The position numbers were made by a program, and so were the translations under genes. Shown here in pieces: positions 3,650 to 45,464 of a stretch of 64,000 nucleotides of DNA. Every line of letters starts with the position of its first letter. Position 1 is the stretch's first letter. A model generated the notes under the pieces. It saw only the letters and a list, made by a program, of their open reading frames with translations, did no database searches and was not told the origin of the DNA. Source of the stretch: Rhynchopus sp. YZ270_cl-10 (lineage: Eukaryota > Euglenozoa > Diplonemea > Diplonemida > Diplonemidae); contig OZ037852.1 in NCBI GenBank assembly GCA_964035575.1, forward strand, positions 124,001 through 188,000, in the 5' to 3' direction.

Positions 3650-3655
3650 ACTAGT

Positions 3656-4082
3656 GGTGAGTGTGGTACTCTGTCTCCTTTCCAACTACCTGTCCGTAGC
3701 CCAACCAAGCGCACCAACAGAGAAAAGGTTGCAAACTGCTGAGTCAAAAACATGCGCACCGCCCGGACTGCAAAATGACAAAATGGAAGTGAAATAAAGG
3801 GTGTTAGGGAGCGACTCAGGCGAGGGGGTTCTTTTGGGTAAATAAAAAAAAAGCGAGCAGTGTGTGTAACTGTTTTTCGGTACCGTGTGGTGTTTTATTG
3901 TTAGTTGGTATTTATTATTCCCCTCCCTTTTGTGGCAGGAATGAGGCATGGACAAAGAAAGGACCACACTCCTCCCTGCGATAATCTAAATGAGTGAGTG
4001 ATTACCATTTCGTTCCCCCCACCGTCCGCTGCAACGGCACAACAATAAAAGGGGGTTTTTTTAAGGATGGTTGCTGCCAAAA
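3656..4082. other. Intergenic, no gene seen
   Basis: A/T-rich sequence with several A-runs. No protein-like frame and no structured RNA seen. Confidence 0.45.
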
Positions 4083-17700: not shown

Positions 17701-20700
17701 CAGGGTACTCCGATATCTCAAAGGCGGCGTCACCAAGGTTGCACAGCGACAACACCGACCCTTCTGACCCACAATGCGCATCCTGTGACAGGCGGAACTG
17801 CGCCAGCGATGCTAGATGAAGGTCAGCTGTGCCACCAAGAAGGGGCATGTCTTGTACAGGTGGCATCCCGACACCACGTTGTGTCAGCTCTGCTGCCTGC
17901 AGCGCTGACGACAGCAACAGAGCCTGGGTCTGCGGCGCCACGCATAGGGTAGGGAGGGCCGCCTTCGCCTCCTGCAGCAGCGCCACCACCTCTGCTGCCT
18001 CGGCACCGTCAGCCACAACGTTGACAGCCGCCCCCACCAGCGCAGGGTGGCCAAAACTCTTCAGATCCAACAACGCATCAATAAGCTCCCCTTGCACACC
18101 GCCCCGCAGCCGCAACGTCAGAACGTCACCCTCCAACACTGGCACCTCCTGCTTGCAGGGGAACTGCAGGACCTGGGTCGACACCCTCTTTGGCACCCCC
18201 GAGGACGTTGCCTCACGCATGGCTTCGAGCAACGCTGCTGATACGTCTACAGCACTCAGCTGCGACAACGATGTTGTGTCAACCTTTGTGTCTCGAAGCT
18301 GCTGCCAAAACTCTTTGCACGAAAGCGTCTCCTCTTCACCCAAAGCCGACGCACGAAGAAAGATCAGCAACAACGGAAGCGCGTTGAGAAGCTTCTGAAC
18401 ACGACGGTGCCGAACATCACGAGAGGCTGCAATCGCATCGACAAAGAGCGGGTCCGACAGCGTCTGCCTATGCGTCTGGATAAGGTGCAGTGCGGCAACA
18501 TTCTGTGTAATAAGAGCGATACAGTGGGTCACCTTGCTTGGCATCGTGGTGCCGGAGGTATCTTCCTTTAGGGTCTTCAACGCAGCCGCAGCATTCTGCA
18601 GTGTCGTAGCGTGCAGGGCTTCTTCACCAAATCTATGTGGAAAGGAGGATGTAAACTCCTTCGCCAAACAGAACCCCTCCCCCTCCGAGGCAGACGTCGC
18701 TACAGGAAGCCTTCGAAACCCTTCCAGCCCCTTCACAAAAACGCACAACGGCACACCAGCCTGCTGTAAGGCTTCTATCACCGCCTCCTCCACACCGCAT
18801 CCCCTCAAAGCTACAGCCTCTACAGCAAAATCCCCAACACAGCAGAGAGTCCCACCAAGCACCTCCGCAAAGCGTTTGTCCAGCGCAAGACGTTCTCCAA
18901 GACTCGCACAGATCTCATCTACTTGAGGAATGAATTCTGCGAGAGACACCTTTGTGGGAACGGCGTTGACGTAGATGCCACGGAGGAGGGTACTGGAGAG
19001 CGCGTCTTTGTGGAATAAAGGGCGTTCTCCTTCTGTGTCACGACTACGCCAACCAAGAAGCGAGGCTCGCATGGTAGATAGAGTCCTCTGCAACTCTATG
19101 AGGGGTATGCTCGAGGCAGCGCTGCACGGTACATTACTTTGCAACAACGCTTCCGGGTCGCAGTCAGCGCACTCCGCTATCGCTGTCACCTCGGAGACAA
19201 ACGCCTTGGGCACCTCCACACCCCACGCTGCAAGCAATGTGAACACCTCGCAGAGATACTGCGCCTCTTCATAGGCTTCCTTCAAAGATGCGAGAAGCGC
19301 TTCTGAGGTTGCGTCTTCCGCAGCGGAGAGGCCTAACTGCGTGAGGGCAGTTTTGTGTGCTGCAACCCAGACAAGAAAGACCAAGGAGTACCGCCCAGAC
19401 TCCACCAATGATGCGGACACAGCGACTGCAGAAGAGGACGCAGAGGTCAAACTGTTGTACGCTGACAAGCACTGTGGGTCAGAGTCGCTTAGTATTGAGA
19501 TGTGCATTTTGGAGACGACGTTGACATCGATGGGGGCGACTTCGAGGAGTTGTGAACGGAGTGTCAGATATGTCTCGAGAATGCGTGAAGCGAGCTCGGG
19601 GGCACGGTCTTCGCCGCTGATGCCGATGGGTGTGCATGCCCATGCATCGATTCTTGCGAGAAGCTGGCCCCAGCTTCCGCATGGTCCAGACAGAGCGTCG
19701 CAGGACAACACCGAAGAGAGGGCGGCAGTCGCAACGGAGATGAGCGTTTCTTGCAGGTATGGGGTGGCGGTGCGCTCTTGGGAGATGGAGGCCAGGTAGA
19801 TGGACAGATCCTCGAGGGAGGGGGTGCCGAGGAAGTAGAGCGGGCCCTCGCCGTCCAGGCCTTCGATGTACGCAGCAGCGTCCCAGTCGTCGACAGAGGC
19901 GTGCAACGAGGTCTGCAGGGCAGCGAGAATGGCAACACCCTTCTCCCGCTGCGTCGTGCGCCACACCCGGTCGCATGCCGCAAGCACCACCTTGCAAGCG
20001 TGCGCCTCGCGTTCGTGCCCTGAGTCGTCAATGCGGGTCAGCTGCCAGGAGGCGGGGATCACCGCGAGTTCTGCTTCGTCTGAGATGTAGGAGAGTGTAA
20101 TATCGATTCTGTCCTCAAGACAGGCTTGGAAGACACGGCGGTCCTTCGAGAGGAAGAGCGTGGTGTAGGCGGAGGGGACGAACCCGAGGGAGATGGTCAG
20201 GGTTTTGTCTTCGCCGTCGTCGCTGGTCGAGACGGCACTGTCCGCGACGTAGAAGACTGCGGCCAGCGCAGGGTGTGTCAGGAAGACCACGGCACCGCCG
20301 CAGGTCACTGTGAAGGCATGATAGTAGTCTGCCGTGTGGCCTTGGTGTCTGTGGTCTTGCTGCTGTTGGACCATGCTGAAGAGCGCTTCCTGCTGTCCTC
20401 GGGGCGAGACGTCGAAGCCGCCTATCCAGGAGTACACACCATCGGGCCACCCTGTGTCGCCTATGTGCGTCAGCATCTGCAGCAGCAGCATCGGGTGGTC
20501 TGCAGGGTCCGTAGGGAACACCGCACCCACCGCGTCTGCCACCGCCTCGCACAGCGTGCCTGGCGTCTCCGCACGCCGCTCCTCCCAGGTGAACCAGGAG
20601 CTCTGCAACGCATCGTCACGACGTGGTGACACAGTGTGCAAACACACCTCCCCCACATAGTTGAACGCAGGCAAAGGTGTCGCCGTGTCAAAGGGGTCCA

Positions 20701-22300
20701 GATGTAAGAGACCCAAGGCCTCCGCCTTGGACAACCCAAAACAAGAGAGCAGCACCCCCACCAGGGCACCACAGTCGCACACAGAAAGGGTGTCTGCAGT
20801 AATACTGGTTCGTCGCAGAAACTGTGCCAACACCTCGGGAGACAGTTTTGGAAGAACAACGAGATCGCCGTGGTGTGCAGAGCGCACCCCAGAGGCGACT
20901 GCGTCAGCGAGAAACTCTGGAACCTGGGCGTGGCGGAGCGAGGGCGCACGGTGGAGGGTGTTCTTCTCGAGTGTCGCGTGGGCGCGGGGTGAGCGGAGGA
21001 CAAGGCTTCTGCTGCGGTGGAAGTGCACCACCACGGAGCTGGGTACCGGGTCCACATCCCCCTCTGGCAGGAACAGCCAGAAGACACTGTCGTCACTCAG
21101 CACACAGCAATAGTCCGGCACGACACAGTCTACTGTCGCAGGGTACTCCACGATGTCAGACACACCCTCATCCTCAACGTCACCCCGATACGGCACCAGC
21201 AGGCCATCACGGTACGGCGCACGCCCTGCCACAAACGAGGCCGACACACGATACATTGTTTCCCCTGTGTCAGCGCAGGTCAACCCTGCCATCGCGGTGA
21301 TGGCCAGCGAACCGCTGTCCATATCCCACTGCCCCACCAACGGTGTGAACGGCGACGGCGCTGGTGCAGTGCTGATGCATTCCCCTAGGAGCGCCGCAAG
21401 ATGTGGCATGAGGGCAAGCGATGCGTTCTCTGCTGCACAGATGGCGACCTCACGCAGCTCTGTTGTCGACAGCGGTGCGAGCAGCGGGCTGTGCCTCAAC
21501 AGAAAGGATGTAGACAACGGACCTATCCCTGCGGCCAAAGCGACGATCTCAGAAAGCCTCCTCACATCCTCCCTGGGCGGTGCAAAGGGACCACGTCTGT
21601 CGGACACCTCTTGCCGAACCAATGCACTACCACCACTCAAGGCACGCAGGATGTCCACCCATGAGAGGCGTCTGTGCATCACCGCAGACAGCATCTCGAG
21701 GTGCATGACGTACCGTGCCGCGCCATCCAGCCCGTACGGTGTGTGGTGCAACAACGCATGCTTGAGCGCGGCCACCAGCTCGACCCCGAGGAGCGTCGTC
21801 CCCCGCTCCCCTTCTGAGAGTGCTCGAAGCTGCCGCACATCGTCTTCTGGGAGGAGGTAGGGAAGGCTGCGTGTGGAGGGGCTGACGCAGGAGAGGGTGC
21901 ACCGCCGCAGAAGGGCCTGCGCAACGGCAGACGAGGCGGCACTGCATGCTGCGAACATGGTGTGGAGGTGCTCGGGGGTGGTCAGGGCGCCACGCATATG
22001 CACTTCTACCCCTCCAGAGGCTATGAGGCATGCGGCGTACAGAAGCAGGGATGGTGTCTCGCTCTCGCTGTGCGCAAGGCTCAACGCCAACGACGATACG
22101 TGCGTTGCGGTGCCCGTGAGGCTCGCTGTGGAGGTCGTCGCTTGCTTGTGTCTCTCCCACGCAGAGGCGGAGAAGCCTGCCAAAGCGTTCCATGCAGCAT
22201 GGCAAGTCTCGGGTGCAGAAGACTCCAAGAGCGTCGTGAGCGCCTGGTCGGTGCTGATGCTGGGCACATCGTCTGCACCGGTGGGTTCGGCTCCGATCAT
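5739..22300 (-). CDS. Giant RNF213-like AAA+ protein, no RING seen
   Basis: Exon 1 (6125-22300) is a 16.2 kb open frame. Exons 2 (5899-6060) and 3 (5739-5813) follow introns of 64 nt (GTATGT...AACAG) and 85 nt (GTATGC...CCAG), both phase 0, giving 5470 residues; an in-frame acceptor 12 nt earlier at exon 3 is possible. Residues 1-1650 are mostly helical and unrecognised. A PDZ-like segment lies near 1660-1730, then two SPRY-like beta domains (about 1735-1885 and 1910-2075). Three P-loops follow: GGPQSGKS (about 2536), GAPGSGKT (about 2912) and GPPGASKST (about 3431). The last resembles the GxPGSSKS P-loop of RNF213-type AAA modules; its following Walker B region is weak. No RING Cys/His pattern was seen in the C-terminal 1900 residues, so E3 ligase activity is not supported. 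AG acceptor 35 nt before the ATG; a 3-codon upstream ORF overlaps the start. A dynein-like or unrelated multi-AAA protein is less likely. Confidence 0.55.
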
Positions 22301-30254: not shown

Positions 30255-32249
30255 TCACAGTTGAATCCAAAAATGAAGGTCAATATCTTTCGTCGATTCT
30301 TCACACAAATCGCCAAACCCTCCAAATCCCTGTGTTTGTCCTGTCCCAAACCCTTCAAATCCTCCTGCTTGTGTTGCGCCTGTTTGTCCTGCACCAAACC
30401 CTCCAAATCCTCCTGCTTGTGTTGCGCCTGTTTGTCCTGCACCAAACCCTCCAAATCCTCCTGCTTGTGTTGCGCCTGTTTGTCCTGTCCCAAACCCTCC
30501 AAATCCTCCTGCTTGTGTTGTGCCTGTTTGTCCTGCACCAAACCCTCCAAATCCTCCTGCTTGTGTTGCGCCTGTTTGTCCTGCACCAAACCCTCCAAAT
30601 CCTCCTGCTTGTGTTGCGCCTGTTTGTCCTGTCCCAAACCCTCCAAATCCTCCTGCTTGTGTTGCGCCTGTTTGTCCTGCACCAAACCCTCCAAATCCTC
30701 CTGCTTGTGTTGCTCCTGTTTGTCCTGTCCCAAACCCTCCAAATCCTCCTGCTTGTGTTGCGCCTGTTTGTCCTGCACCAAACCCTCCAAATCCTCCTGC
30801 TTGTGTTGCGCCTGTTTGTCCTGTCCCAAACCCTCCAAATCCTCCTGCTTGTGTTGCGCCTGTTTGTCCTGCACCAAACCCTCCAAATCCTCCTGCTTGT
30901 GTTGCTCCTGTTTGTCCTGTCCCAAACCCTCCAAATCCTCCTGCTTGTGTTGCTCCTGTTTGTCCTGCACCAACCCCTCCAAATCCTCCTGCTTGTGTTG
31001 CTCCTGTTTGTCCTGTCCCAAACCCTTCAGATACTCCTGCTTGTGTTGCGCCTGTTTGTCCTGCACCAAACACGGACTCCCTTACTGTGGTGCGGACACG
31101 TGCAGGACAGTTCATTAGGAAATTCATCCCAATCTTCGCATCCTTGCGCAAGCCGAACATATCTAATGCTGTCAACGCTGTGCAGTTGAAGAGAAAGTCG
31201 TCTTGAATGTCGGTGATGTTGCCCAAGTTTGGGAAGACGAGTGTTGTGAGTCTGTAGCAGTCTTGCAGGAAGTAGCGCCCGATAGTTGCGAGACTGTCTG
31301 AACCTGACATGTCTAGCGACGTCAACGATCTGCAATCTGACAGGAAAAAATCATCAATCCGTGTCAGCTTGCTCATTCCCGAGAAGTCTGCTGTTGTCAA
31401 CGCATGGCACACTGCCGTGCAATACTCCTTGATATGTGTGGCTCTGCGGAAGACTGAGAAATCAACTGTTTTCAATGAACGAGAACTGTGAAGAAAGGAT
31501 CTCGCGATCTCTGTGGCGCTGCCAAAAGCTGACAGGTCAACGCTTGCCAGCGAGGTGATTGCAAGAGAGACTTCACCAAAACTCTCGACCCTGTGCAGTG
31601 CTGATACGTCAATCATTTTCAACAAGAAGCAGCCCGTACAAAACTCGATCCCAATTTGCCTCACACTGGTCATCCCTGAGAAGCTAATAGCGGTCAACGA
31701 CCTGCAGTTGAAGAGAAAGCGGTCGTCGATCTTCGTGACACTGCCCAAAACTGACAAATCTATGCTTGCCAACAAAGAGCAGTCCGAGAGGAAGTTGTTC
31801 TCAATGCGCGTGACTCTGTGCCATCCTGATATGTCAATCGTTTCCAACGACTGGCATTTGAGAAGAAAGCTTTGGCCAACCTTTGTCACACTGGTCATCT
31901 CGGATAAGTCAAGTTTTTTTAAACCACTTCCTTCCAGGAACCAGCCCTCTATCATCGTCACACCAGTGAACCCTGACACGTCAAGGCTTGTCAACGATGT
32001 GCAGGCAGACAGACAGTGAGACCCAATGTGGGTAACGTTGCGCAATCCCGACAAGTCAACGGTTTCCACCGACGCACACGCATAGAGAAAGCTGTCTCCA
32101 ATTCGCGTCACGCCAGACACGGCAGAGAGATCAAGTCTCGTGAACGACGGTGCGGGCATGAAGCTATTCGCACCGGCCAAGAAGCTATGCGGTGTTGCAG
32201 TCGCCACCTCCGCCTGCAGAAGCAAAGACGCCACCTCAGGATCCCTCAC
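30255..32249 (-). CDS. BspA-type LRR + FG-like repeat protein, 3' part of a gene split by LINE insertions
   Basis: The frame is open with no ATG near its 5' end; it reads from the insertion site straight into LLLQAEVATATPHSFLAGAN. About 15 LRRs of 23-24 residues follow (pattern FL..C.SL..LDLSG...VT.I), as in BspA/TpLRR proteins of trichomonads and bacteria, ending NFLMNCPARVRTT. A low-complexity tail of about 15 units of 16 residues (GFGGFGTGQTGATQAG) then runs to DLHFWIQL and a TGA at 30255-30257. The 5' part of this gene is at 45189-45464: both sides share the target sequence, and ITAERLVT is followed there by the insertions. LRRs suggest binding; FG-rich tails recall nucleoporins but membership is not claimed. 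Confidence 0.8.
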   Translation of the reverse strand: MRDPEVASLLLQAEVATATPHSFLAGANSFMPAPSFTRLDLSAVSGVTRIGDSFLYACASVETVDLSGLRNVTHIGSHCLSACTSLTSLDVSGFTGVTMIEGWFLEGSGLKKLDLSEMTSVTKVGQSFLLKCQSLETIDISGWHRVTRIENNFLSDCSLLASIDLSVLGSVTKIDDRFLFNCRSLTAISFSGMTSVRQIGIEFCTGCFLLKMIDVSALHRVESFGEVSLAITSLASVDLSAFGSATEIARSFLHSSRSLKTVDFSVFRRATHIKEYCTAVCHALTTADFSGMSKLTRIDDFFLSDCRSLTSLDMSGSDSLATIGRYFLQDCYRLTTLVFPNLGNITDIQDDFLFNCTALTALDMFGLRKDAKIGMNFLMNCPARVRTTVRESVFGAGQTGATQAGVSEGFGTGQTGATQAGGFGGVGAGQTGATQAGGFGGFGTGQTGATQAGGFGGFGAGQTGATQAGGFGGFGTGQTGATQAGGFGGFGAGQTGATQAGGFGGFGTGQTGATQAGGFGGFGAGQTGATQAGGFGGFGTGQTGATQAGGFGGFGAGQTGATQAGGFGGFGAGQTGTTQAGGFGGFGTGQTGATQAGGFGGFGAGQTGATQAGGFGGFGAGQTGATQAGGFEGFGTGQTQGFGGFGDLCEESTKDIDLHFWIQL
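30330..31070 (-). repeat. 48-bp coding minisatellite (16-residue FG-like repeats)
   Basis: About 15 near-perfect 48-bp units encode GFGGFG[T/A]GQTGATQAG. T and A variants mostly alternate, giving a 96-bp higher-order unit. Because 48 is a multiple of 3 and the unit lacks stops in several frames, other frames are also open on both strands; those are shadows. Confidence 0.9.
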
Positions 32250-32268
32250 AGTCACCAACCTCTCGGCT
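32250..32268 (-). repeat. LINE target site, copy 1 (host 3' junction)
   Basis: AGCCGAGAGGTTGGTGACT on the minus strand, encoding AERLVT in the host frame. It is the 3' boundary of LINE copy A with the LRR gene. Confidence 0.9.
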
Positions 32269-32700
32269 GATAAACGTTTTTAAAAATAGGATGGAGCACC
32301 CCGGTCCGAAAAGGAATGCAGCCACCCCTGGCTTCAGGCTCGCGAACCCAGCGTTGATGTAACACAGGGTTTCACGGGCCAAAACCAGAAAAAAAAAATG
32401 AAAAATTGAGGGTTCAACGACTGCGCCAACTGGTCTCATGCGACGTTGAACCAACTTAAAATCTAGAATCTTGTGTCAACTTGTAAAGAAAAGCAATGAA
32501 TATTAAAATTACCGGTTTCAGGCGTGGCGTACACGTCTGCTGCCATCTACGCTGGGATAGCCGTCCGGTTTGAACTTGGGGTTCAACAACAGTGCCAAAT
32601 GGACTTATGCGTCGCTGTGTCAACTGTAAACAATGAAAAACAAGAATGTCGTTGAGGAAGATTGAAATGCATGAAAAACAAGAAGAACAAGGTAAAATAT

Positions 32701-35547
32701 CTACAGAGGGTGCTGTCCTAGCTTGTCCTCTTTCGTTGTCTCGCCCACACTAAGCTTCTCAACGGCCGTGCAGGCGAGCTTTGTGGCGTTCACGTTGTTA
32801 CTGCTGTCGATGTGCACCAACGTGATGCTTCGGGTCGCTCTCAGCTTGTCAAGCTCACCCCGCGCCTCTTTCTGGAGGTGGGCGACTGCCGCGTATGGTC
32901 TGCAGTGCTCGTTCACCTGGTCAACCACGGTTCTACTGGATCCGTAGATGTTCAGTGGTGTGGTGTCTGTGTCGCTCTTCAGGTATTCGAGGCACATCAG
33001 CAGTCCTTCATACTCCGCGACGTTCAGGGTTGTGTCCGCCAGGCGACTGCTGGCTGTCCACCGCACCTCGCCATCTATCTCGAGGCGTGCACCTGCGCCC
33101 GATCCCTGGCAAGTGTTTTTCTTCACCCTCGCCCCCGGCTGCCTCACGTTGCAGTATCCGCCGAAGAAGATGCGAGTGTGTCCGGTGGGTTTCTTTGGTT
33201 TTCGTCGAGCCTGCTTCTGCTGCTTCTGCTCAGCAGCCAAGCGGATGTGCTTCGCAATTCTGTCTGCTCTCTCCTGTTTGCAGTCCTCTTCTTGGGGTGG
33301 GAGCTCTGTGTTCGTCCAGGATTTGTTCCCTTTGCAGAGGGTTGGCAGGGACCGGATCGTCTTGAGCACCTCAGCTGGTTCGGTGAGGATGGGTCGTCTC
33401 GTGATCGCTAGGGTTCCCCACTTGATGCCTAGGTCTAATGGGGCGAACACTTTGCTCTTGGGGTAGATGGTGCCCGAGAAGAGGTACGCGTTTGCTGCCA
33501 CTATCTTTGCCTTAGCCATCCAGTTGCTGAACCAGGTGATTTTGTCGGTGATCATGGAGCTCTCTCGGGAATTGGGTTCCTCTGTGGTGAGCTTTGCTCC
33601 TGTGTGCGCTTCGAAGTCCAGCGCCAGCTCCAGGTGCGAGACGTGCTGTGATTTCCCATTGGACACCGTCGGCCACTTTAGGCTTTCCAGCCACTCCTTG
33701 AGTGCGAGGTATCCTTCCGCTTTGTACGGCCACGCGTCTGGCACCTCGTCAGGAAGTACTCCTATGTAGGTCTCGTATGGGCCTTCTGGTTCCCATGTCC
33801 AGGGAAAATTGTCCATTTGGCTCGTCTTCGTTGTAGTGGTACCGCGTTTTCTCTTGTCCTCCCTCTCTAGGGCGATGTCTGAGTACATGAGAAGCAGCAG
33901 CTCTAGGGCTTCTCTGTTCGGCACTTCCGGAATCATCTGGAAGCCGGCGGGGAGAATGGCGTTGAGGCGCAGGCATTTCGGCCAGCTTTCTCTTACTGCT
34001 GGATCGGACACTCTTGCGTATTTGTGCTGTTCGCGTATGTGTGCGGTGTGGCTGCATTGTTCCCACATGTGTTCAAAGTCCTCCACACCTGTGCCGCAGT
34101 GCTCGCACGTGTCACTGGTGCTCATCTTCATTCTTTTGCGCCTGTCCTGTGTGAGCTCCGCTCCTGCAAGAATGTTCCTCATGTACCCTGCACGCAGTGG
34201 ATCTGTGTTCTTGTAGCTGTTCCACACGGCGTTGATCGTGCGATAATCGATGCCATCTTTAACCCCTTGCATGTCCTCCCTCCTTGTCTCGAGTCTACGG
34301 CAGAAATCGTCCCTGATACCGTCTCGGAGTTGGTGTCGAAGAAGGTCACCCTCGGGTTCGTCGAGGTTCATCTGTGTTGTGTGCGGGGGCAATAGGGTGT
34401 TGTTCTCCCAGCGCCAGTTCATGGATTGGGTGGTGCGGAGGAGGATGTCTACCGGTCCACAGTATTTTACTCTCGACGTCCGCTTCAGGATACGGATCTC
34501 GTCTATTAGGGTTCTAATCTCCTGGTTCTTCCCCATGGTGTAGAGCGCGAGCAGGCGTTGGTACTTGAGGTAAGATGTTGGGTCTGTCCGGTGTAGCGGG
34601 TTCAGCACTCCCCTCACTATTTCACTGCATCTGCTAGGTAGGCCCCTCCAAATCGCCGCCGTCACTGCTTTGGTGAGCCTTCCAGCGGTGGTGGACAGCG
34701 GCTCGTACGTCTCGCAGCCGTAGAGTGCCATGGGCATTATTTTTGTCGCCACCAGTTCGGCTCTGCCTTCAAAGGGGACGTTGAGGTGAGGGATACGTCG
34801 CGCACATGTCTCAGCTTTGCGCACTCGCTTGTCCAGCTTTGTCGCTGCTTCCTTTTTCTTGGCTACGGCCAGTCTGATCACTGCGCCGAGATTGTCCAGT
34901 TCCTTCTTCTCCTGTCTCAGCTGGGTGTCTCCGAGCATGAGCTCCAGCTTTTCGGTCTTGGCTGTCGAGAAGGAGAAACTACTTCCGTACGTGAGGTCGG
35001 TCTTGGTGGCGAAGTCGTGGGACACTGTGAGGCCTTTCCTCAATTGTGCGGTGTTGTTCGAGGTCATGGTGGTGTCGTCCGCGTACAGGCTTGTCCGACA
35101 TCTGGTTTCCGTCCGAACCGCCGCCTCCCACACTGCTAGGAGGGCGTTCAGCAGGATAATGCTCAGCGCACATCCCTGCAGAATGCCATTGTTCGCTTTG
35201 AACTCCTCACCGACCGTACCGTACAGTTTGAACCGCCTCTTCAGGTCCCTGTACATGCTCTTGAGGGGCCGCGTGATCTTCATGTCGATCCCCATTTTCT
35301 CCACAAGACTGAAGGTTATGTCCCACGGTATGGTGTCGAAGCATTTCTTAATGTCCAGAAATACTCCTCGCAGCGTGTTCCCCGACACCATTGCTTTTTC
35401 GACCAGGAGTGCGGTGAGGTAAAAAGCGTCACGTGTTCCGTGCCCAGTCCTGAAGCCGTGCATGGATTCCGGTGCCCATGTCTCTTGCCACACCATTAGG
35501 CTCGTCAACCTTGTCTTTGCCCATAGCCGATATACCGCCGACATCAC
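32701..35547 (-). CDS. LINE copy A ORF2, C-terminal part: reverse transcriptase, zinc knuckle, RNase H-like
   Basis: About 949 codons. RT motifs are clear: GFRTGHGTRDAF, FLDIKKCFDTI, GILQGCALSIILLNAL and LYADDTTM with the YADD catalytic pair. A CCHC-type knuckle (CEHCGTGVEDFEHMWEQC) lies in the thumb/connection region. The last 130 residues have an RNase H fold pattern (AEYEGLLMCLEYL, IYGSSRTVVDQ, NATKLACTAVEKL), but acidic positions usually found in the first strand, in the G-D-S motif and near the end are Gly, Ser and Asn here. The frame is separated from the endonuclease part by the 575-bp deletion, whose length is not a multiple of 3. Confidence 0.9.
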   Translation of the reverse strand: MMSAVYRLWAKTRLTSLMVWQETWAPESMHGFRTGHGTRDAFYLTALLVEKAMVSGNTLRGVFLDIKKCFDTIPWDITFSLVEKMGIDMKITRPLKSMYRDLKRRFKLYGTVGEEFKANNGILQGCALSIILLNALLAVWEAAVRTETRCRTSLYADDTTMTSNNTAQLRKGLTVSHDFATKTDLTYGSSFSFSTAKTEKLELMLGDTQLRQEKKELDNLGAVIRLAVAKKKEAATKLDKRVRKAETCARRIPHLNVPFEGRAELVATKIMPMALYGCETYEPLSTTAGRLTKAVTAAIWRGLPSRCSEIVRGVLNPLHRTDPTSYLKYQRLLALYTMGKNQEIRTLIDEIRILKRTSRVKYCGPVDILLRTTQSMNWRWENNTLLPPHTTQMNLDEPEGDLLRHQLRDGIRDDFCRRLETRREDMQGVKDGIDYRTINAVWNSYKNTDPLRAGYMRNILAGAELTQDRRKRMKMSTSDTCEHCGTGVEDFEHMWEQCSHTAHIREQHKYARVSDPAVRESWPKCLRLNAILPAGFQMIPEVPNREALELLLLMYSDIALEREDKRKRGTTTTKTSQMDNFPWTWEPEGPYETYIGVLPDEVPDAWPYKAEGYLALKEWLESLKWPTVSNGKSQHVSHLELALDFEAHTGAKLTTEEPNSRESSMITDKITWFSNWMAKAKIVAANAYLFSGTIYPKSKVFAPLDLGIKWGTLAITRRPILTEPAEVLKTIRSLPTLCKGNKSWTNTELPPQEEDCKQERADRIAKHIRLAAEQKQQKQARRKPKKPTGHTRIFFGGYCNVRQPGARVKKNTCQGSGAGARLEIDGEVRWTASSRLADTTLNVAEYEGLLMCLEYLKSDTDTTPLNIYGSSRTVVDQVNEHCRPYAAVAHLQKEARGELDKLRATRSITLVHIDSSNNVNATKLACTAVEKLSVGETTKEDKLGQHPL

Positions 35548-35581
35548 GGAAATTGGTCGGTGGTCGAGTGGTTGTGGGTCC

Positions 35582-37168
35582 AGCGTCGAGAATGCTCACC
35601 AGCCCTGCCTTCGCTTTGTCCCACGCCTTGCGTGCGCTGGGTGTGAGGGCTCCTTTGGTGCGTAGAGTGTTGCCGACCTCAGTTAGTCTGCGGATCGTCT
35701 TCCGGATGCGCGTCATCTTGAGGGTCTCTCCTGCGTCGCCTTCGCGAGACTGTCTGCTGCACAGCCAGGTGCGTCGCAGTTTGGGTGGTCGGCCTTTGCG
35801 GAAACATGCTGCTGAGTTGTCGTCTCCCTGCCGTGCCCAGAAGTTGGTCGCATCCTCATTCCATGCTTTCCACTTGTCCTCTACCAATGTGCTTGCGTGC
35901 CATTGTGCTTTGGAACCATCGCAGATCTCTTCAGCCTCCTTTTCAAGGTCTGCCTTCGTTTTCTTCCTGCTCAGTTCATCCTGTTGTAGCATAGGGGGCC
36001 TTTCCTGCTTGAGCACACGCTGCCGGTACGTCATATTTTTAAATGTCGCGTCCAGGGGGATGTGTGAAGGTATTCCGGCCGTCCCCGTTTTGCACCCTGC
36101 CAGCGCAAGCACCGCGATTTGGTTGGCCAGTATGATGTCAATTCGTGAGCACACACTTTTGGCTTCAGACTTTGTGCTCTTACCGATGTGGGTGTGCTCT
36201 GGCTCTTGGTTGGCCCAGCCCGCGGCTCGTTCGGCACAGTCCGTCCATCGTTCTGAGCTGATGGCTAGGGATATTGCTTCGCTTGAGCTGGGTTCTGGGT
36301 GGCTGTTGCAATCCCCGAGGATAATCGCTGGTACGTCCCCTATCTCTGCTTCTGCAAATACATCCGATAGGAAGCTCTCGCGCTCTTGCTTTGCTTGCGG
36401 GGAGTTGCCGACTTTGGCGTATATCACGAATAGGTGTAGAAAATGGTTCCCTGCCCCATGTGCCACCTTTGCGTGCAGGTAACGCTTTGAGTCCCAGAGT
36501 CTCTTTGCTCGTTCAGTATCTCTCCTGACCACACTTGCTGGTATGCCTCGTTTCACCATTAGGCCCACCCCCTTGTGCTCTCCGTAGCTCTGTTGTATTG
36601 CATTTGGAAGTAACTTTACTGGGCACCCCCAGAGACCTGTCCAGCCTTGTTCATACAGCGTTCGGGAAGCTTGGGCCTGTTTCTTCTGTGTGAGCCGGGT
36701 CTCCTGCAGTGCGACTATGTCGTTGTCCCAACTCCACACCTCCTCCTGGTGAGCATTCATTGAGGTGATGTTGGCAGTACGTATGGACAGGTTTGGAGTG
36801 GCCCGGGCAGCGCGGCGTCGCTTTCTCTCCGTCTTGGTACGTTTCCGTGAGCGAGACACTGCGATATTCGTGTCCAGGTTCTCCAGCGTGACACAGCGGT
36901 TGCCTTCTGCCTGCGTCGTTGCAATCAGCGACAGCAGCCCCTCGGTTGCTTTGAGGCGGTCGAAGTGCTCGGGCCTGTACGTGAGCACAACTGGGTTCGA
37001 TGTAGGTGGTCCGCCGACGTGGCTAAACCGTTTCGCTCTGGCATCCAGTACCCAGATGGCCCTGTCGAGTATGCTTGCCGCAGTCTGTAGCTCACGTTCT
37101 CCACCGTACGTTCCTTGCATTCTCATTTTGGCTAGGTGTTGCGTGTAGGTGGGAGGTTCGTTTGCCTC
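35582..37168 (-). CDS. LINE copy A ORF2, N-terminal part: OTU remnant and APE endonuclease
   Basis: Open frame from the 5' truncation point. It starts within the OTU domain (GGERELQTAASILDRAIWVL and the His motif YRPEHFDRLKA are kept), then an APE-type endonuclease with LQETRL, GDCNSHPEP, SRIDIILAN and SHIPLDATF, corresponding to the N, QE, GDxN and SxH active-site blocks. The codon that is a stop in copy B (42014-42016) is Trp here (RLWDSKRYLHAK). The frame ends at the internal deletion. Confidence 0.85.
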
Positions 37169-37187
37169 AGTCACCAACCTCTCGGCT
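37169..37187 (-). repeat. LINE target site, copy 2
   Basis: Same 19-bp AGCCGAGAGGTTGGTGACT, between the 5' end of copy A and the 3' end of copy B. Confidence 0.9.
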
Positions 37188-37645: not shown

Positions 37646-40600
37646 CTACAGAGGGTGCTGTCCTAGCTTGTCCTCTTTCGTTGTCTCGCCCACACTAAGC
37701 TTCTCAACGGCCGTGCAGGCGAGCTTTGTGGCGTTCACGTTGTTACTGCTGTCGATGTGCACCAACGTGATGCTTCGGGTCGCTCTCAGCTTGTCAAGCT
37801 CACCCCGCGCCTCTTTCTGGAGGTGGGCGACTGCCGCGTATGGTCTGCAGTGCTCGTTCACCTGGTCAACCACGGTTCTACTGGATCCGTAGATGTTCAG
37901 TGGTGTGGTGTCTGTGACGCTCTTCAGGTATTCGAGGCACATCAGCAGTCCTTCATACTCCGCGACGTTCAGGGGTGTGTCCGCCAGGCGACTACTGGCT
38001 GTCCACCGCACCTCGCCGTCTTTCTCGAGGCGTGCTCCAGCGCCCGATCCCTGGCAAGTGTTTTTCTTCACCCTCGCCCCCGGCTGCCTCACGTTGCAGT
38101 ATCCGCCGAAGAAGATGCGAGTGTGTCCGGTGGGTTTCTTAGGTTTGCGTCGATCCTGCTTCTGCTGCTTCTGCTCAGCAGCCAAACGGATGTGCTTCGC
38201 AATTCTGTTCGCTCTCTCCTGTTTGCAGTCCTCTTCTAGGGGTGGGAGCTCTGTGTTCGTCCAGGATTTGTTTCCGTTGCAGAGGGTTGGCAGGGACCGG
38301 ATCGTCTTGAGCACCTCAGCTGGTTCGGTGAGGATGGGTCGTCTCGTGATCGCTAGTGTTCCCCACTTGATGCCTAGGTCTAATGGGGCGAACACTTTGC
38401 TCCTGGGGTAGATGGTGCCCGAGAAGAGGTACGCGTTTGCTGCCACTATCTTTGCCTTAGCCATCCAGTTGCTGAACCAGGTGATTTTGTCGGTGATCAT
38501 GGAGCTCTCTCGGGAATTGGGTTCCTCTGTGGTGAGCTTTGCTCCTGTGTGCGCTTCGAAGTCCAGCGCCAGCTCCAGGTGCGAGACGTGCTGTGATTTC
38601 CCATTGGACACCGTCGGCCACTTTAGGCTTTCCAGCCACTCCTTGAGTGCGAGGTATCCTTCCGCTTTGTACGGCCACGCGTCTGGCACCTCGTCAGGAA
38701 GTACTCCTATGTAGGTCTCGTATGGGCCTTCTGGTTCCCATGTCCAGGGAAAATTGTCCATTTGGCTCGTCTTCGTTGTAGTGGTACCGCGTTTTCTCTT
38801 GTCCTCCCTCTCTAGGGCGATGTCTGAGTACATGAGAAGCAGCAGCTCTAGGGCTTCTCTGTTCGGCACTTCCGGAATCATCTGGAAGCCGGCGGGGAGA
38901 ATGGCGTTGAGGCGCAGGCATTTCGGCCAGCTTTCTCTTACTGCTGGATCGGACACTCCTGCGTATTTGTGCTGTTCGCGTATGTGTGCGGTGTGGCTGC
39001 ATTGTTCCCACATGTGTTTAAAGTCCTCCACACCTGTGCCGCAGTGCTCGCACGTGTCACTGGTGCTCATCTTCATTCTTTTGCGCCTGTCCTGTGTGAG
39101 CTCCGCTCCTGCAAGAATGTTCCTCATGTACCCTGCACGCAGTGGATCTGTGTTCTTGTAGCTGTTCCACACGGCGTTGATCGTGCGATAATCGATGCCA
39201 TCTTTAACCCCTTGCATGTCCTCCCTTCTTGTCTCGAGTCTACGGCAAAAATCGTCCCTGATACCGTCTCGGAGTTGGTGTCGAAGAAGGTCACCCTCGG
39301 GTTCGTCGAGGTTCATCTGTGTTGTGTGCGGGGGCAGTAGGGTGTTGTTCTCCCAGCGCCAGTTCATGGATTGGGTGGTGCGGAGGAGGATGTCTACCGG
39401 TCCACAGTATTTTACTCTCGACGTCCGCTTCAGGATACGGATCTCGTCTATTAGGGTTCTAATCTCCTGGTTCTTCCCCATGGTGTAGAGCGCGAGCAGG
39501 CGTTGGTACTTGAGGTAGGATGTTGGGTCTGTCCGGTGTAGCGGGTTCAGCACTCCCCTCACTATTTCACTGCATCTGCTAGGTAGGCCCCTCCAAACCG
39601 CCGCCGTCACTGCTTTGGTGAGCCTTCCAGCGGTGGTGGACAGCGGCTCGTACGTCTCGCAGCCGTAGAGTGCCATGGGCATTATTTTTGTCGCCACCAG
39701 TTCGGCTCTGCCTTCAAAGGGGACGTTGAGGTGAGGGATACGTCGCGCACATGTCTCAGCTTTGCGCACTCGCTTGTCCAGCTTTGTCGCTGCTTCCTTT
39801 TTCTTGGCTACGGCCAGTCTGATCACTGCGCCGAGATTGTCCAGTTCCTTCTTCTCCTGTCTCAGCTGGGTGTCTCCGAGCATGAGCTCCAGCTTTTCGG
39901 TCTTGGCTGTCGAGAAGGAGAAACTACTTCCGTACGTGAGGTCAGTCTTGGTGGCGAAGTCGTGGGACACTGTGAGGCCTTTCCTCAATTGTGCGGTGTT
40001 GTTCGAGGTCATGGTGGTGTCGTCCGCGTACAGGCTTGTCCGACATCTGGCTTCCGTCCGAACCGCCGCCTCCCACACTGCTAGGAGGGCGTTCAGCAGG
40101 ATAATGCTCAGCGCACATCCCTGCAGAATGCCATTGTTCGCTTTGAACTCCTCACCGACCGTACCGTATAGTTTGAACCGCCTCTTCAGGTCCCTGTACA
40201 TGCTCTTGAGGGGCCGCGTGATCTTCATGTCGATCCCCATTTTCTCCACAAGACTGAAGGTTATGTCCCACGGTATGGTGTCGAAGCATTTCTTAATGTC
40301 CAGAAATACTCCTCGCAGCGTGTTCCCCGACACCATTGCTTTTTCGACCAGGAGTGCGGTGAGGTAGAAAGCGTCACGTGTTCCGTGCCCAGTCCTGAAG
40401 CCGTGCATGGATTCCGGTGCCCATGTCTCTTGCCACACCATCAGGCTCGTCAACCTTGTCTTTGCCCATAGCCGATATACCGCCGACATCACGGAAATTG
40501 GTCGGTGGTCGAGTGGTTGTGGGTCCTCCACCTTGGCGATCATGCTCACGGTCGCGTGGAGGAGAGCTTCTGGCCATATGCCCGTCTCTTCTACTTGGTT

Positions 40601-43087
40601 GAGGATTGATGCCAGCCTGTCGAAGATCCCCGTTGGGAGAAGCGCAAGTTCTTCTGGGTGCCAGCCGTCTGTGCTGGGGGCCTTCCCCTTCGGCATGCTC
40701 TCGGCCACGGCTTTCAGCATCCTTCCGGTGAGGGGTTCTACGTGCATCGGCCGTTGAGGTATGTGTGTGCCAAACCTTTCCTCGAACGCTTCCCACGTGG
40801 GTGTGTCACTCAGGGTGTTGTGCTTTTGGAGTATGGGAAGCCATGCCTCACGCAACCACGTGTCCATGTCCTCCACATTCGCGGTCTCTTCCGTCCCGCG
40901 CTTCATCGTGTTGCACCGCACTTTGGCTCCGTTGAGGCGCTTGTAGATAAGCCCTGGTGTGGTGTGCCATTGCGTGCGTATCATACGATATCTTTGCGTG
41001 GCCCTGTCCCTCTCCAGGTTCTTTCTGGCAGTTTCGAGTCTCTGGTGCAGGCGCTGTATCAGCTCCAGTGTCGTGCTGGCCTGCGGCTCCTCCTCTGGGG
41101 TAGCGTCGAGAATGCTCACCAGCCCTGCCTTCGCTTTGTCCCACGCCTTGCGTGCGCTGGGTGTGAGGGCTCCTTTGGTGCGTAGAGTGTTGCCGACCTC
41201 TGTTAGTCTGCGGATCGTCTTCCGGATGCGCGTCATCTTGAGGGTCTCTCCTGCGTCGCCTTCGCGAGACTGTCTGCTGCACAGCCAGGTGCGTCGAAGT
41301 TTGGGTGGTCGGCCTTTGCGGAAACATGCTGCTGAGTTGTCGTCTCCCTGCCGTGCCCAGAAGTTGGTCGCATCCTCATTCCATGCTTTCCACTTGTCCT
41401 CTACCAATGTGCTTGCGTGCCATTGTGCTTTGGAACCATCGCAGATCTCTTCAGCCTCCTTTTCCAGGTCTGCCTTCGTTTTCTTCCTGCTCAGGTCATC
41501 CTGTTGTAGCATAGGGGGCCTTTCCTGCTTGAGCACACGCTGCCTGAACGTCATATTCTCAAATGTCGCGTCCAGTGGGATGTGTGAAGGTATTCCGGCC
41601 GTCCCCGTTTTGCACCCTGCCAGCGCAAGCACCGCGATTTTGTTGGCCAGGATGATGTCAATTCGTGAGCACACACTTTTGGCTTCAGTCTTTGTGCTCT
41701 TACCGATGTGGGTGTGCTCTGGCTCTTGGTTGGCCCAGCCCGCGGCTCGTTCGGCACAGTCCGTCCATCGTTCTGAGCTGATGGCTAGGGATATTGCTTC
41801 GCTTGAGCTGGGTTCTGGGTGGCTGTTGCAATCCCCTAGGATAATCGCTGGTACGTCCCCTATCTCTGCTTCTGCAAATACATCCGATAGGAAGCTCTCG
41901 CGCTCTTGCTTTGCTTGCGGGGAGTTGCCGACTTTGGCGTATATCACGAATAGGTGTAGAAAATGGTTCCCTGCCCCATGTGCCACCTTTGCGTGCAGGT
42001 AACGCTTTGAGTCTCAGAGTCTCTTTGCTCGTTCAGTATCTCTCCTGACCACACTTGCTGGTATGCCTCGTTTCACCATTAGGCCCACCCCCTTGTGTTC
42101 TCCGTAGCTCTGTTGTATTGCATTTGGAAGTAACTTTACTGGGCATCCCCAGAGACCTGTCCAGCCTTGTTCATACAGCGTTCGGGAAGCTTGGGCCTGT
42201 TTCTTCTGTGTGAGCCGGGTCTCCTGCAGTGCGACTATGTCGTTGTCCCAACTCCACACCTCCTCCTGGTGGGCATTCATTGAGGTGATGTTGGCAGTAC
42301 GTATGGACAGGTTTGGAGTGGCCCGGGCAGCGCGGCGTCGCTTTCTCTCCGTCTTGGTACGTTTCCGTGAGCGAGACACTGCGATATTCGTGTCCAGGTT
42401 CTCCAGCGTGACACAGCGGTTGCCCTCTGCCTGCGTCGTTGCAATCAGCGACAACAGCCCCTCGGTTGCTTTGAGGCGGTCGAAGTGCTCGGGCCTGTAC
42501 GTGAGCACAACTGGGTTCGATGTAGGTGGTCCGCCGACGTGGCTAAACCGTTTCGCTCTGGCATCCAGTACCCAGATGGCCCTGTCGAGTATGCTTGCCG
42601 CAGTCTGTAGCTCACGTTCTCCACCGTACGTTCCTTGCATTCTCATTTTGGCTAGGTGTTGCGTGTAGGTGGAAGGTTCGTTTGCCTCAGGAGAGTAGCT
42701 GTCAGCATAGAGGTCACTGTCGTCGTTTTGCAGTACGTCCACCACCCGTTGTCGCAGTGAGTTCGTTGTCCACCCCTCGCTCTGCTCAGCTATGGCAGTG
42801 AATAGGCAGTCCCCGTCTGGCGCTACTGCTATCCTTGTAGAGTTGATACTGCGGGCTGTTGCGTCCAACCACTCCTTGTGGTCGGTGATGGCCCTCAGTG
42901 GGTTCACGGGATTGTCGTTGTTTTTGGGGTAGGCGCTCCTACCTATCCCCGGTTCTATGTGCGATTCTAAGTACGTATCTAATCTAGTGGGGGGGGTGAG
43001 GTGGGGGAGTGGAGGGGTTGGGTCTAGAATCAAACGAACAGGAGATCGTTGATCTCGTCCGCAATCGCCTTCGACTCCTTCTTCCAC
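37646..43087 (-). CDS. LINE copy B ORF2: OTU protease, APE endonuclease, RT, zinc knuckle, RNase H-like
   Basis: About 1813 codons in one frame apart from a TGA at 42014-42016 (TGG in copy A). OTU: catalytic block APDGDCLFTAIAEQ near 42800-42840, the GGERELQTAA segment, and His block YRPEHFDRL near 42480. APE endonuclease about 42320-41560 (LQETRL, GDCNSHPEP, SRIDIILAN, SHIPLDATF). RT with FLDIKKCFDTI, GILQGCALSIILLNAL and YADD (near 40025). CCHC knuckle near 39045. RNase H-like end about 38110-37690 with non-acidic residues at key positions. No ATG lies between the end of ORF1 and the OTU Cys (first Met is in KMRMQGTYGG), so expression by frameshift from ORF1 is likely. 42014-43087 is the OTU/endonuclease half. 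Confidence 0.9.
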
Positions 43088-44562
43088 CGCTCCATCTCCT
43101 CCGTCCCCTCCGTCACCTTTCCCGCCCCCTTTCCCATCTTTCCGCCGTCCTTCGACTTGCCCTTTTTGCGCTGGGGGGGGCCCGACCCGAAGATGTCGTC
43201 CATTGTGCTTCCCTTTCCCGCGCCGGACGACTTTGACCCCTTTTGCTTGTTGGGGGTGGTTGGTGGCGACAGTGTCTCGGTCGCGGTTTTCGGCTTTACC
43301 GTCTCGTTGGCCTTCACATCACAGTCCTTCGTGTCCTCCGTGGTGCTTTGTTGTTGTTGGAGCGGAGAGGGTGGGTGAGCCGGTTCCGCGTTGGTGGTAG
43401 GCTGGAGTAGCCTGAGGAGGTGGGCCAGGTGCGCGTCCGTCGCCTCCTGTCGTGCCTCCGCTGCACACTGCCGAGCCACCACCGTCGCCAGCGCCGCGTT
43501 CATCTCCTCCTGAGCTTTGTTGTTACTGACAACTGCAGAGAGGATTTGCTCCCGCTGAGCTTCCGCGTTTGTCGCCAGTTCTTCCGCTCTGGTGGCGTGG
43601 CTGTCCATCTTGGACAGTTGGAGAACTTGACGCTCTAGGAGCGCTTCAATGCCCTTGCCCATTTGTAGAAGAGGGGTGGTGATAGAGGTGAGGTCGGCCG
43701 GTGTTGCGTTGTGGTTCTGATGCTGTTGGGGAAGTTGGTGCTGAACTACGCGCTGCATCCATGCCAGCTCCAGCTTCTGTCCCTGTTCGAACAGCTTTTT
43801 GCCTCTGTCCGCGCCGTACTCTGCTACAAATTCTTGGCTGGTGTATTTTACCTTCCTGTTTCTCTCTGTGGGGTCAGGTACCCGTGTAGGAAGCTGTTGG
43901 TGGGTGTCTGCTGTGGTGGTGACGGTGCTGGTGTCTCTTGCTACTGCAGGGAGGATTGACACCACTAGGCTCTGCCACTTGACGCTGCTGTGCGGTGGCT
44001 GCGTCTCTGCGCGCACCACGAGGGTCTTTTCCCCCGTTCTGCCCTTGCTGAGCAGCGTCACCACCCGCGCCCCCTCCCACTTCATCGCCTTCAGTGCCGC
44101 GATGCAGTCCTGCTTCGTTGCGGGGGGAGGAACCGGCCTGAGGTCGAAGAGCTGGGTGGTGGTGTGCGTTGTGGTGCTGTCGGGTATCTCGAACGTGAAT
44201 GTGGGGGCGTCATCCATCGCCTCCGGGGCACCACCGCTGCTACCTCCCCTTAGCCTACCCAGCTCCCACACGTTGCAGTGCGTCCTGCACATCCGGAGCG
44301 ACTCCTTGTCGCTCATGTCCCTCCCGTTGATGGTAAGGCGGTGCACGTCCCTGCGTCCACCTGTCTTCGCGCGCACTGCCGCCTTCAGGTCAGCCACCGA
44401 GTCCGTGTCGCTGACGTCCACTGTCACTGTCTTTCCAGTCAGCGTTCGCACAAAAATCTGCCTTTTTACCTCTTCATTTTCTTCTTCTTTTTGTTCCGAG
44501 TCTTTGCCGCAGTCCTCTGCGTTGCCCGGGGTCACCTCGTGGAGGTGCTCGGTAAAAACCCC
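43030..44562 (-). CDS. LINE copy B ORF1: ubiquitin fused to a coiled-coil ORF1 protein
   Basis: Open from the target site to the TGA at 43030-43032, in frame with AERLVT of the host gene. After a 33-residue acidic/basic linker comes a 74-residue ubiquitin (44242-44463): RQIFVRTLTGKTVTVDVSDT at its start and GRLRGG at its end, so the diGly is present. SSGGAPEAMDDAP follows, then a folded segment (QLFDLRPVPPP, ALKAMKWEGARVV), a KKLFEQGQKLELAWMQ region and a long coiled coil (LLERQVLQLSKMDSHATRAE ...), then a basic Lys/Gly-rich tail ending NDLLFV. No ATG precedes the ubiquitin; the first Met is inside it. ORF1 proteins of LINEs are usually RNA-binding coiled-coil trimers. Confidence 0.88.
   Translation of the reverse strand, partial: GVFTEHLHEVTPGNAEDCGKDSEQKEEENEEVKRQIFVRTLTGKTVTVDVSDTDSVADLKAAVRAKTGGRRDVHRLTINGRDMSDKESLRMCRTHCNVWELGRLRGGSSGGAPEAMDDAPTFTFEIPDSTTTHTTTQLFDLRPVPPPATKQDCIAALKAMKWEGARVVTLLSKGRTGEKTLVVRAETQPPHSSVKWQSLVVSILPAVARDTSTVTTTADTHQQLPTRVPDPTERNRKVKYTSQEFVAEYGADRGKKLFEQGQKLELAWMQRVVQHQLPQQHQNHNATPADLTSITTPLLQMGKGIEALLERQVLQLSKMDSHATRAEELATNAEAQREQILSAVVSNNKAQEEMNAALATVVARQCAAEARQEATDAHLAHLLRLLQPTTNAEPAHPPSPLQQQQSTTEDTKDCDVKANETVKPKTATETLSPPTTPNKQKGSKSSGAGKGSTMDDIFGSGPPQRKKGKSKDGGKMGKGAGKVTEGTEEMERWKKESKAIADEINDLLFV
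43117..43135 (-). promoter_or_regulatory. Two candidate -1 frameshift heptamers (GGGAAAG) at the ORF1/ORF2 overlap
   Basis: GGGAAAG occurs at 43129-43135 and 43117-43123, each split G GGA AAG in the ORF1 frame, i.e. the X XXY YYZ phase needed for -1 slippage. ORF2 lies in the -1 frame and is already open at this point; ORF1 stops about 90 nt later. The downstream stretch is G-rich. Slippage itself is inferred. Confidence 0.5.
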
Positions 44563-44581
44563 AGTCACCAACCTCTCGGCT
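44563..44581 (-). repeat. LINE target site, copy 3
   Basis: Same 19-bp AGCCGAGAGGTTGGTGACT, between the 5' end of copy B and the 3' end of the short element upstream. Confidence 0.9.
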
Positions 44582-45188
44582 CGATAAACGTTTTTAAAAA
44601 TAGGATGGAACACCCCGTTCCGAAGAGGAATGCAGCCACCCCGAAAAAGTGGGGGTGTGTCGCCAGTCTGCGGTGAGAAACTCCTTCCCTGAGTCAAAAC
44701 TGCCGCTGGTTAGCGCTGGCTAAGGTTCCCTTTTCACCCGGTCACAATCGAGTCTCGCTCCGTCGGCGTTGACTGCACTGCAAAGCCCCTTGGTCCACCG
44801 TCGTAAAAAGACACCACAAAAAGCGTAGGTAGGTGGGGGACCGGCAGGTTACAGACAGAGGCAGTACGGAGCTAAGGTGTCGGCGGTCGCGGGTTGCCGT
44901 GGAGGCCTGCCCCCCGTGGAGGTCTTGGGATCTGGGAGTTTTGTGGAAGTAATCGGCTCAGAGTACCCTGCATTCCATGCACGACTCGAGCTCCTTGTGG
45001 TAGGATATTGGGGTCCCGGGAAGCACCCTTCGCCCCGAGGTCCCACCACCCCAGACAGTTTGTAGGTCTAAAAGCACAACGTACTTGTCCAGGACCTGGC
45101 CGCTCTTGGGTTCTCTCGAAAAAAAGATACTAATCCCGTACGCCCGTGCACCGCAAAAATGTGCTATGGGGGGCGGTCCGCCGTCGGG
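44582..45188 (-). mobile_element. Short (607 bp) element sharing the LINE 3' tail and target site
   Basis: Flanked by the same 19-bp target as the LINEs. Only its last ~60 bp (low-coordinate end, AGGATGGAACACCCCG-type sequence then the TTTTTAAAAACGTTTATCG end) match the LINE; the rest does not. It is either a non-autonomous element mobilised by the LINE or the 5'-truncated end of a related LINE. Its 5' side continues the host frame for about 77 codons (VTPDGGPPPIAHFCGARAYG ...) before a stop at 44958, so the host N-terminus is currently fused to it. Confidence 0.75.
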
Positions 45189-45207
45189 AGTCACCAACCT
45201 CTCGGCT
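45189..45207 (-). repeat. LINE target site, copy 4 (host 5' junction)
   Basis: Same 19-bp AGCCGAGAGGTTGGTGACT, here as part of the host coding sequence ITAERLVT. Confidence 0.9.
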
Positions 45208-45464
45208 GTAATATCTGTCTCACCCAACGCACGAAGTGTCTCCACGGATGCGTACTTCTTTGTTTTATTCAACAAGATTATGTCCCCAGCACTCAGTTCT
45301 GTGATGTCCTCTCCTTCCTCCTTCCCTCCGAAGCCCATGTGGAAGCTGTCTTCGCACAACCCTGTTGTAGTCGCTACCTTCTGCCGCATCGTCTCTGTTG
45401 TGTCGTTCTCACCCACCTCAATCACGAATTTGTTTTCATCAAAATCCTGTACACACACTTCCAT
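45189..45464 (-). CDS. Ubiquitin-like N-terminus of the split LRR gene (5' part)
   Basis: 92 codons from the ATG at 45464 to the insertion point. The peptide looks ubiquitin-like: MEVCVQDFDENKFVIEVGEN, a helix TMRQKVATTTGL, an FHMGFGGKE turn, and DIILLNKTKKYAS, then LRALGETDITAERLVT. It resembles the N-terminus of the DUF4116 gene at 26673 in layout. A C/T-rich tract and acceptor CAG (45486-45488) end 21 nt before the ATG. The reading frame continues after the three insertions at 32249 (VRDPEVASLLLQAEV), so the original gene coded ubiquitin-like + LRR + FG-like tail. As it stands the gene cannot make that protein unless about 13 kb is removed. Confidence 0.75.

Follow-up and report, generated by a model that had tools for sequence, protein, structure and literature searches.

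Trypanosomes and other eukaryotes provide the closest described counterparts of the element discussed here, a long interspersed nuclear element (LINE) carried by a 64,000-nucleotide stretch of DNA from the diplonemid Rhynchopus sp. YZ270_cl-10 (contig OZ037852.1, positions 124,001 to 188,000; hereafter the window). The L1Tc/ingi LINEs of trypanosomes have a hepatitis delta virus (HDV)-like ribozyme at the 5' end (PMC4035085), and 2A-like sequences occur in the T. cruzi elements of this class, which lack long terminal repeats (non-LTR; PMC4981915). In the RHS multigene family, Ingi and RIME share an insertion hot spot, and genes there are split by one or more elements (PMC7563717). The R2 non-LTR retrotransposons also have a fixed target and an HDV-like ribozyme, which cleaves the co-transcript at the 5' junction or upstream of it (PMC3774820). 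However, R2 targets 28S rRNA genes, whereas the Rhynchopus LINE targets protein-coding genes that encode a ubiquitin-like (UBL) domain and leucine-rich repeats (LRR). It differs from L1Tc/ingi in this target, in having no 2A, in an OTU protease domain and, as it also does from R2, in a ubiquitin domain near the start of its first open reading frame (ORF1). The favoured explanation, held with some reserve, is that this ubiquitin is a removable leader. Deubiquitinases would cut after its terminal LRGG, freeing an ORF1 protein (ORF1p) that begins with SSGG from a peptide encoded by the ribozyme or from the host UBL.

Other mobile elements and cellular genes offer partial parallels. Utopia and NeSL LINEs encode a Ulp1-like protease, of the ubiquitin-like-protein kind (PMC4640811), but this is not an OTU domain and the targets are U2 genes and the spliced leader. 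Among DNA transposons, Ginger1 and Helitron carry OTU or Ulp1 proteases, and involvement of the ubiquitin pathway in transposition has been suggested (PMC2836005). These are not LINEs, however, and a ubiquitin moiety was not found in the available part of that paper. The ribosomal fusions Ub-eL40 and Ub-eS31 have an N-terminal ubiquitin that is removed by deubiquitinases. Ubiquitin fusions are normally processed in this way, and linear fusions are cut fast in model eukaryotes (PMC8122580). These fusions differ in being cellular genes with ubiquitin at the extreme N-terminus. Most parts of the Rhynchopus LINE have a precedent (LINEs with a 5' HDV-like ribozyme, a hot spot in a multigene family, 2A or a Ulp1-like protease, and DNA transposons with OTU), but none appeared for the ubiquitin leader among the open-access papers listed. 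No report of a ubiquitin-headed LINE turned up among them, judged from titles and abstract openings. The word "ubiquitin" is absent from PMC4640811, PMC12846837, PMC4981915, PMC6338049 and PMC6875170; PMC2836005 uses it, for proteases.

The ubiquitin was recognised at 44242-44463 in an earlier reading of the window made from its letters alone (the sequence-only reading). A profile search bears this out. The minus-strand translation, RQIFVRTLTGKTVTVDVSDTDSVADLKAAVRAKTGGRRDVHRLTINGRDMSDKESLRMCRTHCNVWELGRLRGG, matches Pfam ubiquitin PF00240 above the cut-off (E 2.9e-9; 37 bits versus 25.4), and a PDB search returned the ubiquitin sequence common to 378 entries (40.1 bits, E 3.1e-9). The domain also ends in LRGG and shares its frame with ORF1, as had been claimed, since the translation stays open to the TGA at 43030-43032. 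The claim of an alignment along the whole of ubiquitin holds in part. Gln2 to Gly76 are aligned, but with 73 residues instead of 75, owing to a two-residue gap in the later part, and the PF00240 match covers only profile positions 1-57 of 72. The statement that ORF1 begins with ubiquitin was mistaken, because 34 residues (GVFTEHLHEV...VKR) lie between the 5' end of the LINE at 44562 and Gln2, and the Met1 position holds Arg.

When the domain is aligned with host ubiquitin, it is identical at 27 of 72 positions. As read from this alignment, K48 is replaced by R, I44 by T, H68 by W and V70 by L, and K63 is aligned with T; L8, K11, K27, K33, R42, R72 and L73-R74-G75-G76 are retained. The C-terminal tail reads GRLRGG and is followed by S; its processing is a prediction. 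Derivation from the UBL of the target gene is unlikely, with an alignment score of 115 to host ubiquitin and 34-53 to four host UBLs.

Is the fusion a peculiarity of one copy? The 152-Mb assembly (126 contigs) was searched for ORF1 and 89 of 233 candidates were scored. Apart from host ubiquitin genes, the search found 12 places matching beyond ubiquitin (L009-L020). Nine of the 12 reach the 5' end of ORF1, and the ubiquitin is in frame in every one of them, so the condition that the sequence-only reading had named as refuting it did not arise; the others (L018, L019 and L020) are fragments without any 5' part of ORF1. LRGG followed by Ser is likewise found in all nine. Two copies at C4 are identical including their flanks, and the nine copies therefore represent eight distinct loci. 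They fall into three ORF1 lineages: the window, C4 and C62; C5, C96, C3 and C7, with 55-57% protein identity to the first; and L017 (75% over 269 residues). The presence of ubiquitin in all nine copies across these lineages leads to rejection of chance or single-copy capture. Between the first two lineages, ORF2 is 99% identical over the 1455 residues searched, despite the diverged ORF1, which indicates that ORF1 types have been exchanged between lineages. The comparison of L009 with L013 has the look of such a module swap, the ORF1 bodies being saturated in divergence while ORF2 is 99% identical.

Changes within the ubiquitin are depleted of nonsynonymous ones. Among the three lineages 7 are synonymous and 3 nonsynonymous, where 74.5% of possible changes are nonsynonymous (P 0.004); with transition-only odds (65.6%) P is 0.024. 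This depletion would also fit a ubiquitin that stays permanently on ORF1p as a working part, for solubility, for docking to ubiquitin-binding host proteins or as a decoy, with LRGG merely inherited. Replacement of the chain-forming K48 and K63 positions, which would block extension there, points the same way. However, the intact LRGG-Ser of all nine copies and the rapid cutting of linear ubiquitin fusions in model eukaryotes (PMC8122580) make a permanent ubiquitin unlikely, although it is the strongest competitor of the removable leader.

The leader ahead of the ubiquitin is itself unusual. It contains no Met in any of the nine copies, and in L017 it has 26 residues, that is, 8 whole codons fewer. 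Most of it is encoded by what appears to be an HDV-like ribozyme, whose bases are also open in the ORF1 frame (GVFTEHLHEVTPGNAEDCGKDSE); the 5' end of the LINE is thus predicted to double as ribozyme and coding sequence. Its first 69 bases score 37.2 bits against Rfam RF02682 (E 1.8e-5, 401 bases searched), under the gathering score of 44; scanned at that threshold, the window as a whole gave nothing. In the eight copies given to Rfam (the window and seven more; L011, which equals L010 where compared, was omitted) the match always begins at the first base of the LINE, with 36.9-37.8 bits and, in the seven further copies, E 0.0015-0.0024 (46,931 bases). A descriptor of the nested double pseudoknot expected of such a ribozyme (helices P1, P2, P3 and P4 plus the core letters), written after the sequence was seen, fits a single place when both strands of the window are scanned, at 44562, and none in three one-strand shuffles.

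The site of insertion is the next clue. The full LINE occupies the minus strand from 44562 to about 37187, and it is a site-specific element of the APE (apurinic/apyrimidinic endonuclease) type with a fixed coding position in a large UBL-LRR gene family of the host. At seven of the eight distinct loci it sits at the same position in the linker of a UBL-LRR gene, following a stretch such as GETDITAERLVT. The target-site duplication is 20 bases long (in the window, one base more on each side of the copies listed in Table 1). It is exact at five (window, C4, C62, C3 and C7) of the seven loci with both ends read, has one inner mismatch at C5 and is imperfect at C96 (by eye, about 3 of 19 bases differ). 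In the host family, 150 of 5832 first-look candidates were scored and, by their listed ranges, all 150 cross the site stop-free. The junction is in phase at 5/7 loci and a full host fusion is present at 2/7. At the latter, C3 and C4 (present as two identical copies), one open frame leads from the host Met-UBL through the leader and the ubiquitin to ORF1, so that Gln2 becomes residue 130 of the fusion at C4 and 129 at C3. Beside these stands L017, a fragment fused into the host frame elsewhere in a UBL. There the ribozyme, the ubiquitin and about 300 ORF1 residues share one open frame with a host protein (1192-3813) whose own part is cysteine-rich (B-box-like by eye) with UBL and LRR; it is possibly a captured LINE head.

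A removable leader would work as follows. The LINE is probably co-transcribed with the host gene, and its own 5' ribozyme would release the LINE RNA from the transcript. Because there is no AUG ahead of the ubiquitin in the LINE, ORF1 would have two possible starts: a non-AUG codon close to the ribozyme, or the start codon of the host UBL where the transcript has not been cleaved. Either start would leave the nascent ORF1 protein with an unwanted N-terminus. Deubiquitinases, those of the host and perhaps the element's OTU too, would then cut after LRGG to give one ORF1p starting with SSGG. The ubiquitin would be the counterpart of the 2A peptide of other LINEs. The sequence-only reading had already proposed that ubiquitin frees ORF1p from an N-terminal leader and had drawn the 2A comparison. 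The proposal fits the sequence and the comparison is apt, because the same genome holds 2A LINEs, some of them within the same UBL-LRR gene family. However, the ubiquitin has no in-frame AUG ahead of it in the LINE, and the leader turned out to be the predicted ribozyme read as protein, plus the host UBL at two loci. That reading had missed the ribozyme and the OTU domain, as well as the target site and its tandem insertions.

Several points weigh against this scheme. Efficient cutting by the ribozyme would keep the host UBL out of ORF1p altogether. The ribozyme itself calls for caution, as its score lies below the Rfam cut-off and, once the core letters are dropped, the descriptor fits 51 places in the window (7-9 per shuffle). 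Recognition of the ORF1 ubiquitin by deubiquitinases is uncertain, since I44, H68 and V70 are altered. The host fusion is not universal. At C96 the frame continues but takes in no more than the end of the UBL. C62 and C5 lack one base at the junction, which puts the LINE out of frame with the host UBL. In the window and at C7, UBL and LINE are separated by further insertions that contain stops, although the target repeat is in phase. Finally, the synonymous divergence between L009 and L013 is 0.098 in the ubiquitin part versus 0.43 over the 100 codons that follow, with saturation farther on. Part of the conservation may therefore reflect a constraint on the RNA or recent swapping of 5' ends. 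This weakens, without removing, the argument for selection on the ubiquitin.

If the ubiquitin is indeed a removable leader, it would give a retrotransposon a further route, besides 2A peptides and encoded proteases, to a clean protein when its transcript is in frame or lacks an AUG, and the element would recruit ubiquitin itself. The translation of an AUG-less, ribozyme-headed LINE RNA would also become directly testable, with the ubiquitin cut fixing the N-terminus whatever the start. What if the landing in frame were itself the expression strategy? In this scenario the LINE borrows the start codon of the host UBL gene and carries both the ubiquitin leader and the OTU that cuts it. This is a doubtful proposition.

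The OTU domain deserves separate consideration. ORF2 encodes an OTU-type deubiquitinase domain, with the profile and the predicted catalytic Cys and His present: the motifs DGDCLF and PEHFDRL were identified by eye and the His aligns with a His of OTU1. In the window copy the first in-frame ATG of ORF2 falls within this domain, with none upstream. ORF1 and ORF2 overlap there in different frames, whereas at C3 they are joined in one frame of 2452 aa. Perhaps ubiquitin and OTU work as a closed pair, in which the element cuts its ubiquitin with the OTU that it encodes, in cis within the fused C3 frame. The DGDC motif with its downstream His and the single frame at C3 would suit such a pair. However, a second LINE family also bears OTU (L046 by Pfam, L048 by eye) and the L046 protein has no ubiquitin match in Pfam. 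OTU is also found in Ginger1 and Helitron (PMC2836005), and host enzymes would be sufficient. The OTU therefore need not act on the ORF1 ubiquitin, and a closed pair is rather improbable. Dualen/RandI are other LINEs with OTU domains, although the papers listed did not confirm this.

The weakest alternative, that ORF1 starts at an AUG right after an untranslated ubiquitin left as a relic of capture, has in its favour that, leaving aside the ubiquitin itself, the earliest in-frame ATG stands nine codons past LRGG (EA-MDDAPTF, ninth codon) in all nine copies, the LINE having none ahead of the ubiquitin, but it is very improbable given the frame of leader and ubiquitin (open in 9/9), the nonsynonymous depletion at either P value and the whole-codon length change in L017.

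Table 1. Features of the LINE and its host gene in the window.
Feature	Coordinates	Strand	Evidence or remark
Coding leader, 34 codons ahead of Gln2	44461..44562	-	In-frame ATG absent
Predicted HDV-like self-cleaving ribozyme at LINE 5' end; encodes most of ORF1 leader	44494..44562	-	Rfam RF02682
Predicted ribozyme cut	between 44563 and 44562	-	
Ubiquitin domain of ORF1, Gln2-Gly76 (ubiquitin numbering), 73 residues	44242..44460	-	Pfam PF00240, PDB ubiquitin
Predicted cut after last Gly, preceding Ser-Ser-Gly-Gly	44242	-	
ORF1 body, 403 codons	43033..44241	-	Stop TGA 43030-43032
ORF2 N-terminal frame; overlaps ORF1 end in another frame	42014..43318	-	
OTU cysteine protease domain of ORF2	42557-42820	-	Pfam OTU E 2.6e-8; 3.9e-9 for domain alone; above cut-off
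ORF2 remainder	37646..42013	-	Pfam
Reverse transcriptase (RVT_1)	39839-40510	-	E 2.2e-22
zf-RVT	38984-39178	-	Below cut-off
RNase H-like RVT_3	37718-38071	-	Above cut-off
Target-site copy at LINE 5' junction	44563..44580	-	GCCGAGAGGTTGGTGACT
Target-site copy between full LINE and second, 5'-truncated LINE	37169..37186	-	
Second tandem copy of same LINE, same site	32268..37168	-	5'-truncated, internal deletion
Target-site copy at 3' side	32250..32267	-	Host reading frame resumes
Host gene 5' part: start codon and UBL up to insertion site	45189..45464	-	PF00240 E 8.1e-4, below cut-off
Host gene 3' part: leucine-rich repeats and FG-type repeats, in frame past target site	30255..32267	-	Repeats by eye
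608-bp non-autonomous element, same site	44581..45188	-	LINE 3' tail shared (91.8% over 61 bp)

By its reverse transcriptase and APE endonuclease sequences the element is an APE-type non-LTR retrotransposon. The endonuclease is partial and below the cut-off in the broken window copy, and above it in the C3 copy L015 (Exo_endo_phos, E 5.1e-7). The break in ORF2 of the window, at about 42014, parts the OTU segment from the remainder; C62 holds a single open frame of 1890 aa. A protein search with ORF2 returned 22 proteins, the best from the same family (99%), followed by matches of 46%, 36% (with OTU, reverse transcriptase and RNase H) and 33%; a Diplonema papillatum protein matches at 34%. In the RNase H-like domain the window has FFGGYC and YGSS versus FFDGGA and FGDS in the relative P0004 (by eye), so catalytic Asp residues may have been lost. 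The ORF1 body gave no family above the cut-off in a Pfam scan. Searches with the whole of ORF1 and with residues 78-477, among the 8000 candidates sharing most words with each, found only the window's own P0001. A coiled coil in ORF1 is suggested by a fraction of a/d hydrophobics of 0.68, which 3.1% of 5000 shuffles reach, a weak test on one stretch chosen for it.

The same genome has other LINEs that carry 2A motifs. The motif D(V/I)ExNPGP occurs at 16 places in the assembly (a reversed control pattern at 0), none of them at copies of the ubiquitin LINE family. Five places were examined in detail. L047 and L052 are two copies of one 2A LINE family, the former inside a UBL gene. At L050 (88-2001) the host UBL frame continues into GRGSLLTCGDVEENPGP, the 2A, and a LINE endonuclease. 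L049 is another LINE with 2A ahead of the endonuclease, and L051 has merely a short frame at the motif. If the ubiquitin is a leader, a host gene family with both ubiquitin and 2A LINEs would be a natural side-by-side comparison. DVEQNPGP recurs at twelve identical places on C3, C12, C14, C36, C91 and C100; one of these, L049, has a long Gln-rich stretch before the 2A and endonuclease. The stretches read of the 2A and second OTU families gave no ribozyme match. In the latter, L046 and L048 are inserted behind LRR genes, both following the same ...LEGYTQRTQKERI and a stop.

The non-autonomous element of the window also occurs in L016 (657-1385, LINE orientation), at the same target site, where 5S rRNA sequence heads it (Rfam 5S, 89.3 bits) and the 3' tail of the LINE closes it. 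The L016 copy is thus a 5S-derived element resembling a short interspersed nuclear element, and the window copy is without the 5S head. Elsewhere in the window, at 6107-22300, lies an open frame of 5397 aa, for which a scan in two pieces gave only an AAA match just above the cut-off.

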